33,204 nt of DNA from Candidatus Coatesiibacteriota bacterium (GTDB taxonomy: Bacteria; RBG-13-66-14; B26-G2; WVWN01; G020348885): contig CP070755.1 in the NCBI GenBank assembly GCA_020348885.1, positions 101,481 to 134,684 on the forward strand, written 5' to 3'. Shown here piece after piece: positions 10,872 to 33,204 of the stretch (positions are counted from its first letter, which is position 1; every line of letters begins with the position of its first letter). Made by a program: the position numbers and the translations under genes. The notes below the pieces were generated by a model. That model did not search any database, was not told the origin of the DNA, and was given only the letters and a program-made list of their open reading frames with translations.

Positions 10872-10895
10872 ACCGGCCAATTTTAACGATCGTCT

Positions 10896-10912
10896 GGAGG
10901 TGAAGTAAAATA
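10896..10912 (+). promoter_or_regulatory. Strong ribosome site followed by an ATA start codon (infC)
   Basis: GGAGGTGA (10896-10903) is a near-perfect Shine-Dalgarno sequence, and six bases later the infC frame reads ATA (10910-10912). The frame has a TGA stop at 10901-10903, leaving only AGT, AAA and ATA before the conserved N-terminus, so ATA is the only plausible start. Confidence 0.85.
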
Positions 10913-11506
10913 GCCCAACGTAGAACCAGGGTCAATAAAGCGATCCGGGTACCAGAAGTCCGTTTAATCGACGAAGAGGGAAACCAAGTCGGGGTCGTCC
11001 CAACCAGCGAAGCCCTTGCTATTGCCCAAGGTAAAGGGTTGGACCTCGTCGAAGTAGCACCGAAAAACCGCCCCCCCGTGTGCAGAGTAATGGATTATGG
11101 GAAGTACCTCTACCAACAAAACAAACGGCAACGGGAGTCCAAGAAGACTCATACCGCGAAAAAAATCAAAGAGTTAAGAATCCGGGCGAAGATAGAGAAG
11201 CACGACCTAGATTTCAAAATAAGACACATAAAGGCCTTTCTAAATAAGAAGTTCAAAGTTAAAATTACGGTGGTTTATAGGGGGCGCGAGATTACGCATT
11301 CCGAGATAGGCCAAGAACTTATATCTAAAGTTATCGCCGCGTTGGGGGACGACGCGATAGTAGAATCCGCTCCCAAAATGGAAGGGCGGGCCCTCATAGC
11401 GGTTCTCGCGCCGGCGGCGAAAAAAACGAAAGAAAAACCTGCGGAAACCGTAATGGCCGAGCTTACGGCCGACACACCGGCTACGGGAGACGAGCCGGAG
11501 GATTAG
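10910..11506 (+). CDS. infC: Translation initiation factor IF-3
   Basis: Binds the 30S subunit, blocks premature 50S joining and checks the start codon. The 198-residue product has the N-terminal domain ([18 protein letters not shown], then GLDLVEVAP and [12 protein letters not shown]), a lysine-rich linker helix ([12 protein letters not shown]), and the C-terminal domain ([16 protein letters not shown] to [10 protein letters not shown]). An acidic tail of about 25 residues follows. The start is ATA at 10910 behind GGAGGTGA. Starting at the first conventional codon (TTG at 11039) would delete most of the N-terminal domain. IF-3 discriminates against non-canonical starts, so a rare start codon on its own mRNA gives negative feedback, as known for AUU in E. 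coli. The TAG stop is 2 nt before the rpmI ATG, implying coupling. Confidence 0.95.
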
Positions 11507-30571: not shown

Positions 30572-30604
30572 ATATAAACGTTCACGCGCGTCTAACTAGA
30601 GCTA

Positions 30605-30630
30605 CCCACAATTACCCACAATTCCCCACA
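30605..30630 (-). promoter_or_regulatory. MraZ operator: three direct repeats
   Basis: On the minus strand TGTGGG occurs three times at exact 10-bp spacing (30630-30625, 30620-30615, 30610-30605). This fits the known MraZ-binding pattern of three TGGG-type repeats spaced one helical turn apart. The repeats lie at the transcription start of the promoter just upstream, a position suited to repression. Confidence 0.88.
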
Positions 30631-30876: not shown

Positions 30877-30925
30877 AAAATTTACGCGGATTATCGAAAC
30901 ACCTTATTTATGAGAGGATTATGAT

Positions 30926-32071
30926 ATGTCCTGTTTCCTGGACGATTAGGTTCTAGCGCTCCAGCGCGAGGTTCGCAAGTTCGCCGCTAAAGAGTTTGCG
31001 CCCCGGGCCGCCGAGTTGGACCGTACCGGCGAATTCCCTCGCGAGAACGTTGCGAAACTCGGCGAGATGGGCCTTCTCGGGATGGTCATCGGCGAGGAAT
31101 ACGGCGGCGCCGAATTCGGCGCCGTCGCCTTGGCCGTCGCAATCGAAGAAGTCAGCTATGCGTGTTCCTCCACCGGTTTAATCATGTCGGTTAACAACTC
31201 GCTGATGGGATTGCCTATCTACCTTTACGGAAACGACCACTTGAAGGATACGTATCTCAGGCGGCTCATTACCGGCGAGATTATAGGCGCCTTCGCCCTG
31301 ACCGAACCCGGCGCGGGGAGCGACGCCGTAAGCATCGCTACCACCGCCGTCCGCGACGGCGACGAATACGTACTCAATGGAACCAAACGTTTCATCTCTA
31401 ACGCCGAAGTGGCCCAGGTCTTTCTCGTTTTCGCCGTTACCGACAAAGAAAAACGAGCGAAGGTCATTACAGCCTTCATCGTCGACCGCGATACCCCCGG
31501 TTTCGAGGTCGGAAAACACGAGGAAATGATGGGCGTGCGGGCCACAGGTACCTGCGAACTGAGTTTCGAGGACTGCCGCGTACCGGTCGAACACGTTTTA
31601 GGCGACGTAGACCAAGGCTTCATTCTGGGTATGAAGCTACTCGACAACAGCCGCATCGGCATAGGCGCCCAGTCGGTCGGTATCGCCCAACATGCTCTCG
31701 ATTTAGCAGTTCAATACTCGAAAGAACGGAAGCAGTTCGGTAAACCCATCTGCGAGTTCGAGATGGTCCAGGATATGCTCGCAACGTGCGCGGCGAAAGT
31801 GGCGGCGGCAAGACATCTGGTTTTGCATGCCGCGTACCTGAAGGACGAGGGTACGAAGAAAATTACGCGGGAAGCGGCGATGGCCAAGTACTACGCATCC
31901 GAGATCGCAAACGACGTAACCCACGCGTGCCTACAAATCCACGGCGGCTACGGCTACTCGAAGGAATACGATATCGAACGGCTTTATCGCGACGCGAAAG
32001 TTCTCGAAATATACGAGGGTACGACCCAAATTCAGAAGATAGTAATCGCGAGGAGCCTGTTGGAAGAATAG
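30926..32071 (+). CDS. Acyl-CoA dehydrogenase, interrupted by an in-frame TAG at codon 8
   Basis: FAD enzyme that makes the first double bond in acyl-CoA and passes electrons to EtfAB. From ATG 30926 (behind AGAGGA, 7 nt away) the frame spans 381 codons, the usual family size, but codon 8 (30947-30949) is TAG. Family-like sequence resumes at once (VLALQREVRKFAAKEFAPRAAELDRTGEFP), so the N-terminal helix straddles the stop. Family members often have Glu-Gln there, so CAG to TAG is the simplest change. The rest is intact: FALTEPGAGSDA, GTKRFISNAEV, the FAD segment RKQFGKPICEFEMVQ, and the catalytic-base region LEIYEGTTQIQ near the C-terminus. The next usable start is TTG at 31016, with no ribosome site, giving 351 residues and losing the first helix. 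It could be a true nonsense mutation, read through, or a sequence error. Confidence 0.85.
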
Positions 32072-32086
32072 ATAGGAAGGTAAACG

Positions 32087-32857
32087 ATGAGAATCCTCCT
32101 CTGCGTAAAACAGACCTTCGACACCGAAGCGAAAATCAAGCCGACCGCCGACGGCAAGTCCGTCGAAAGGGAGGGCATAACCCTTGTGCTCAACCCGTAC
32201 GATGAGTACGCCGTCGAGGAAGCGCTCCGGATAAAGGAGCGGCTCGGCGATGTAGAGACGGTCGCGCTGACCGTCGGGCCGCCGTCGGCACTCGAGGCCA
32301 TCCACTCTTGCTACGCGATGGGCGTGGACGAAGGCGCCCACGTCGTCGGCGACGATCTTATCAGTTTGGACCCGTACGTAACCGCCGAACTGCTGGCGGC
32401 GGCGATCGCAAAGCTCGGTGACTTCGAAATCACCTTCTGCGGCCGAAGCGCCGTAGACGACGAGGCCCAAGCCGTACCAGCGTATCTTGCTGAAAAATTG
32501 GGACTTCCGATAATTACATCGGTAACGAAGCTGGACATCGACGGCGGCGGAGGTTTCGTTACGGCGATCCGTGACGTCGAAGGCGGCAAGGAAACCCTCA
32601 AGGTCCCGTTCCCGGTCGCCCTTACGGCGCAGAAGGGGCTTAACGAACCGCGTTATCCGTCGATACTCGGGATCCGGAAAGCGAAGAAACGGGACGCGCA
32701 AACGTTTACGCCCGCAGAACTGGACGTCGATTTGGCGCCGAAAGCGATTACGACGAACGTGGAACTCCCTTCGAAACGGGAGGCCGGGCGGATAATCGAA
32801 GGCGACGCCGCCGAAGCGGCAAAGGAACTAGCGGAGATAATCTCCGGGGACCTATAG
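32087..32857 (+). CDS. etfB: Electron transfer flavoprotein beta subunit
   Basis: The 256-residue protein has the EtfB N-terminus MRILLCVKQTFDTEAKI, NPYDEYAVEEALRIKE, the AMGVDEGAHV region, CGRSAVDDEAQAVPAYLAEKLGLPIITSV and the recognition-loop segment LNEPRYPSILGIRKAKK. With EtfA it carries electrons from acyl-CoA dehydrogenases to the quinone pool or another acceptor. It lies 15 nt after the dehydrogenase, with an AGGAAGG ribosome site, so the genes form one operon. Confidence 0.96.
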   Translation: MRILLCVKQTFDTEAKIKPTADGKSVEREGITLVLNPYDEYAVEEALRIKERLGDVETVALTVGPPSALEAIHSCYAMGVDEGAHVVGDDLISLDPYVTAELLAAAIAKLGDFEITFCGRSAVDDEAQAVPAYLAEKLGLPIITSVTKLDIDGGGGFVTAIRDVEGGKETLKVPFPVALTAQKGLNEPRYPSILGIRKAKKRDAQTFTPAELDVDLAPKAITTNVELPSKREAGRIIEGDAAEAAKELAEIISGDL

Positions 32858-32866
32858 GGAGTATAA

Positions 32867-33204
32867 ATGGCCAAAGAACTATGGGTCGTTTGCGAGGTTA
32901 AAGACGGGCGGGTTAAACGGACGGCGTTCGAAATAATCGGGAAGCTGGACGAACTTCGTGGCGGCGATTACGAAGTCTCGGCAGTAGTTCTCGGCTCGGA
33001 CGGCGAAGCCACGGCCGAACTGAACGGTTATCCGGTCAATACGGTCTATTCTGTCGAAGCGCCGGCCCTCGAGAACTACACGACCCTCGGTTATACGAAA
33101 GCGCTAACCGACCTGATAAACGAGAAGAAACCGTACGCCGTACGTTTCGGCGCGTCTATTCAGGGACGGGACCTGAGCGCCCGGACGGCGGCGCGGCTGG
33201 GCGT
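32867..33204 (+). CDS. etfA: Electron transfer flavoprotein alpha subunit, 3' end outside window
   Basis: Only the first 112 residues are present. They form the N-terminal EtfA domain (MAKELWVVCEVKDGRVKRTAFEII, AVVLGSDG, INEKKPYAVRFGASIQGRDLSARTAARLG), which contacts EtfB. The FAD-binding C-terminal domain lies beyond the window. GGGAG precedes the ATG, 9 nt after the etfB stop. Confidence 0.93.
   Translation, partial: MAKELWVVCEVKDGRVKRTAFEIIGKLDELRGGDYEVSAVVLGSDGEATAELNGYPVNTVYSVEAPALENYTTLGYTKALTDLINEKKPYAVRFGASIQGRDLSARTAARLG

Follow-up and report, generated by a model that had tools for sequence, protein, structure and literature searches.

An in-frame TAG at codon 8 of a Coatesiibacteriota acyl-CoA dehydrogenase gene is probably a wrong base in the assembly consensus

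Acyl-CoA dehydrogenases (ACADs) are recognized by a set of three domains (PF02771, PF02770 and PF00441), and the nearest solved relatives of the protein considered here are clostridial-type acyl-CoA and butyryl-CoA dehydrogenases and the mammalian short-chain ACAD. The gene that we describe, from a Candidatus Coatesiibacteriota bacterium, has the full domain set in common with this family and is followed directly by etfB and etfA; its sole departure from the family is a TAG at codon 8. A TAG within an otherwise open frame is shared with amber recoding, whether by a pyrrolysine system or by a suppressor tRNA, and the spurious stops of draft and metagenome assemblies are likewise isolated and lie in genes that are otherwise intact. 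Truncation of predicted proteins has served to reveal assembly error in metagenomes, in that instance for indels (PMC6785717). All known bacterial code reassignments involve UGA, and false recoding calls have arisen from in-frame stops in pseudogenes or contaminant contigs (PMC8629427). A search of the literature for an in-frame TAG in an acyl-CoA dehydrogenase found no match.

The window, by which we mean the whole stretch of 33,204 nucleotides that was analysed (contig CP070755.1, positions 101,481 to 134,684), has its end set by a 100-N scaffold gap inside etfA. The ACAD gene occupies positions 30926-32071 of the plus strand. A Shine-Dalgarno-like AGAGGA at 30913-30918 stands 7 nt ahead of the ATG at 30926-30928, which opens a frame that passes through the internal TAG (30947-30949) and closes with a TAG of its own at 32069-32071, giving 380 residues plus the internal TAG, or 381 codons with that TAG counted; the initial annotation had placed all of these features correctly. 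The N-terminal (PF02771), middle (PF02770) and C-terminal (PF00441) domains are each far above the Pfam cut-off, acyl-CoA and butyryl-CoA dehydrogenases of solved structure match with E values down to 3e-113, and an IYEGT motif is present near the C-terminus and aligns with the solved relatives. We take this motif to mark the region of the catalytic Glu in short-chain ACADs. Downstream on the same strand, etfB (32087-32857) carries an ETF family match (PF01012, genome 133642-134199). The earlier description of etfB and etfA as intact and co-directional holds for etfB, which is whole, and for the start of etfA (32867-33204), but etfA is cut off there by the 100-N gap, whose first base follows position 33204 directly. 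What heads this ACAD-etfB-etfA operon is an ordinary acyl-CoA dehydrogenase, with its N-terminal domain interrupted, in the assembly as given, by the TAG at codon 8.

The N-terminus that the TAG interrupts is real, because the coding signal and PF02771 both cross the segment concerned, and the segment is kept in 118 homologues. When the TAG is read as X, PF02771 scores 120.0 bits with a match from residue 11, and this score falls by 28.6 bits for a protein begun at the TTG at 31016-31018, the first in-frame start codon past the TAG. On a hexamer model trained on this same genome, codons 1-7 score +4.3 and codons 9-30 score +13.8; the two remaining frames of the strand give -8 and -10 for the first stretch and -24 and -36 for the second. 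The alignment, which drew its 118 ACAD homologues from related genomes and GTDB species at identities of about 53% or less, has positions 9-30 occupied without a gap in every member. The stretch between the TAG and the TTG (30950-31015, plus strand), which encodes the first helix of the N-terminal domain, is thus both family-like and coding, as had been suspected from the letters alone. In the column of the TAG itself the homologues carry Glu (55), Asp (50) or Gln (3). Because this column is one of Glu or Asp, the lost codon was most likely GAG and not CAG, so that a GAG-to-TAG change would replace the CAG-to-TAG change guessed at first. Frame repair by a single indel upstream was also considered and, by eye, rejected; since a gain or loss of one base near the TAG yields another stop or a non-family frame, a substitution is the simpler cause.

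The use of TAG elsewhere in the genome bears directly on whether it could be decoded as sense. A 0.46 Mb sample contained 326 called genes, of which 172 end in TAA, 98 in TAG and 56 in TGA; TAG is a routine stop here, closing about 30% of genes, this ACAD included. Rfam finds 45 tRNAs in the genome, and among these ARAGORN reads no CTA, TTA or TCA anticodon. The initial annotation had pointed to pylS or an amber-suppressor tRNA as things to look for, and neither was found: the PylS model meets ThrRS alone, a cross-match at 25.5 bits vs a cut-off of 178. The PylC-like_N domain is likewise absent from the genome. We reject a pyrrolysine system on the lack of PylS, of a PylC-like domain and of a CTA tRNA among the 45, with a slight reserve for a tRNA lying in a scaffold gap, and TAG-specific recoding because TAA is hit equally. 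Genome-wide recoding of TAG, already judged unlikely in the initial annotation, fails in the same way, TAG being neither rare as a terminator nor the one stop found in frame. The locus differs from amber recoding in each of these respects.

About half of the genome, taken as stretches that add up to 1.26 Mb, was scanned for stops with same-frame coding sequence on both sides or directly after, and candidates were re-tested with the stop read as X; TGA sites were left out of the error count. About ten isolated in-frame TAG or TAA stops lie in otherwise intact conserved genes in this 1.26 Mb, the ACAD counted, a number that is approximate because candidates were picked partly by eye. Strong homology or a domain spans the stops in lepA (one TAG), argF (one TAG and one TAA), cysS (one TAG), an NtrC-type (sigma-54) regulator (TAA), a calcineurin-like metallophosphoesterase (TAA) and a radical SAM protein (TAA). 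Two further TAA stops, one in an ABC ATPase gene and one in that of an M16 peptidase, sit in homologous sequence but not clearly within the best-matching Pfam stretch. At conserved columns, the expected residue is one base away from the stop: Glu in the ACAD, lepA and argF (at the TAA), and Tyr or Gln in the NtrC-type regulator. The cysS column holds Lys or Ser in solved relatives. Whole-family searches found cysS and lepA as single full-length copies in this genome, along with two further carbamoyltransferase matches, both below the argF cut-off.

Other genomes provide a measure of how unusual these stops are. Among 15 genomes searched, the cysS stop occurs in this one alone, the lepA model meets a stop in this genome and one fragmentary MAG, and the argF model meets stops in this genome (two) and one other MAG; in whole-family searches the cysS, lepA and argF stops are seen in no other genome of the same order. 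The same scan over 0.4 Mb of each of two related genomes, G005 and G004, turned up a single comparable TAG/TAA case, a nucleotidyltransferase in G005. The excess in our genome (about 10 in 1.26 Mb vs 1 in 0.8 Mb; conditional binomial about 0.04) is suggestive, modest in numbers and not overwhelming.

The assembly, a single contig of 2.6 Mb, is a scaffold: 87 runs of N, most of them exactly 100 long, interrupt the 1.26 Mb sampled. The estimated completeness of the genome is 90%. No clustering of stops near scaffold gaps was seen. Only one convincing frameshift was recognized by eye in 0.86 Mb, in an antiporter-like gene at L172:16607 (plus strand) where the coding signal switches frame, and for this reason the presumed errors are mainly substitutions. 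Unlike the spurious-stop cases known from assemblies, substitutions here outnumber indels. Because Glu codons dominate, we considered a G-to-T signature of oxidation or a lost mismatch repair, and set this aside, as the cysS stop does not require it. The genome does have MutM, and in all 15 genomes searched MutY fails to exceed its cut-off, so that no repair-related feature sets this one apart.

In-frame TGA codons form a separate group. A second Lgt-like gene (PF01790; L174:8192, plus strand, genome about 1868192) has a TGA in the stretch GRIG-x-QLAGDGDYG, and one TGA is likewise present in its counterpart in three other genomes of the order. An assembly error was set aside for this site, because the TGA recurs in those three genomes and relatives carry tRNA-Sec; selenocysteine is likelier, and the Lgt-like protein may possibly contain it. 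A literature search joining 'selenoprotein' with the Lgt name found no paper. A SelD-like gene (L263:8178, minus strand; TGA in the N-terminal stretch TCAG-x-ASKV) and a short membrane protein gene (L175:16686, plus strand; TGA at the Cys-like position of CAGSS-x-GVSGNPYVS) probably encode selenoproteins. The relative G004 has a TGA in an Rdx-family (SelW-like) domain at L237:10847. Two genes of similar sequence (L161:4428, minus strand; L167:18688, plus strand), both of them lacking a Pfam match, have a TGA at the same place, (F/Y)CG-x-stop before RxQELV. tRNA-Sec is above the cut-off in 11 of 13 genomes that share an order, class or phylum with this one, in which it was not found, gaps being a possible reason.

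Two genes show unusual starts. In infC (window 10890-11506, plus strand), an apparent non-AUG start (ATA) follows GGAGGTGA, and the ORF as listed, from TTG 11039, is too short. An rplU-like frame (L159:10502, minus strand, genome about 144001) begins without ATG, GTG or TTG; its start seems to be ATT or ATA (reading MYAVV) unless the start base is another consensus error. Separately, the minus strand at window 30602-30629 bears three TGGG-type repeats about 10 bp apart, upstream of an mraZ-like ORF (30571 to 30068), and these appear to resemble the MraZ binding boxes of the division and cell-wall cluster.

Taken with the locus itself, these observations lead us to propose that the codon-8 TAG is most likely due to one incorrect consensus base in a gapped draft assembly, and that the codon in the organism would read Glu (GAG). 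A consensus error is favoured because isolated TAG and TAA stops recur in housekeeping genes, the sole full-length cysS included, and this genome-wide scatter is what lifts the sequencing or assembly error, which the initial annotation had listed among its options, above the others. One such cause would account for the whole set of TAG and TAA stops, which we infer to be absent from the living cell. Some observations do not sit easily with a consensus error: the two stops of argF are compatible with a real pseudogene too, the rarity of frameshifts is not that of the usual indel-rich long-read error, the stops are not clustered at scaffold gaps, and their excess is modest, with candidates chosen partly by eye. 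The main rival is a genuine nonsense mutation, which would make the gene a young pseudogene copy or the base a strain variant caught in the consensus. One substitution is enough for this, the genome has four further ACAD genes and another etfB-etfA pair (genome 213601-214942), which would lower the cost of loss, and the related G005 has its one comparable stop in 0.4 Mb. The remainder of the ACAD is undecayed and its operon intact, however, and cysS is normally essential; with no second full-length copy, its stop is not a tolerated null mutation, and real inactivation therefore leaves the set as a whole unexplained. We consider a nonsense mutation unlikely, though well ahead of the readings that follow.

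Natural readthrough or suppression of the TAG in the organism, by which codon 8 would receive Glu or some other residue, draws on the presence of four TAG sites (ACAD, lepA, cysS, argF) within otherwise intact genes and on the bases after the TAG, which are GTTCT in both the ACAD (window 30947) and argF (L170:19082). A suppressor tRNA could sit in an assembly gap, as the missing tRNA-Sec, found in most relatives searched, illustrates. Yet GTTCT does not follow the TAG of lepA or of cysS, in-frame TAA is no rarer than TAG, and neither the 45 tRNAs nor the searches for PylS and a PylC-like domain offer a decoder for a codon that terminates 98 of 326 genes, the ACAD itself among them. We regard readthrough at this site as highly improbable. 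It is just as hard to credit the broader version, in which some UAG, and perhaps UAA, is read as sense in housekeeping genes by a gap-hidden suppressor or a near-cognate tRNA. Decoding is a poor explanation for the set because TAG and TAA are both affected and both are normal stops; if readthrough did occur, cysS, lepA and argF would contain leaky UAG and UAA codons in a bacterium for which both are also normal stops, which would be very surprising. Re-initiation at TTG 31016, as the initial annotation had allowed, is in frame and would yield a shorter enzyme of 351 residues that keeps the catalytic domains. Between the TAG and this TTG there is no in-frame start codon (ATG, GTG, TTG, CTG or ATN), but no Shine-Dalgarno-like sequence lies 5' of the TTG either, the product would be without the first helix of its N-terminal domain, and codons 9-30, which score as coding, belong to a segment that none of the 118 homologues lacks, so that no relative starting at the TTG was found among them. 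A start at this TTG has very little to recommend it.

Most likely, then, the codon-8 TAG is not a new kind of decoding. If the base is indeed wrong, the gene would be a reason for caution, in that a lone in-frame stop should be weighed against the assembly-wide load of stops before recoding is proposed.
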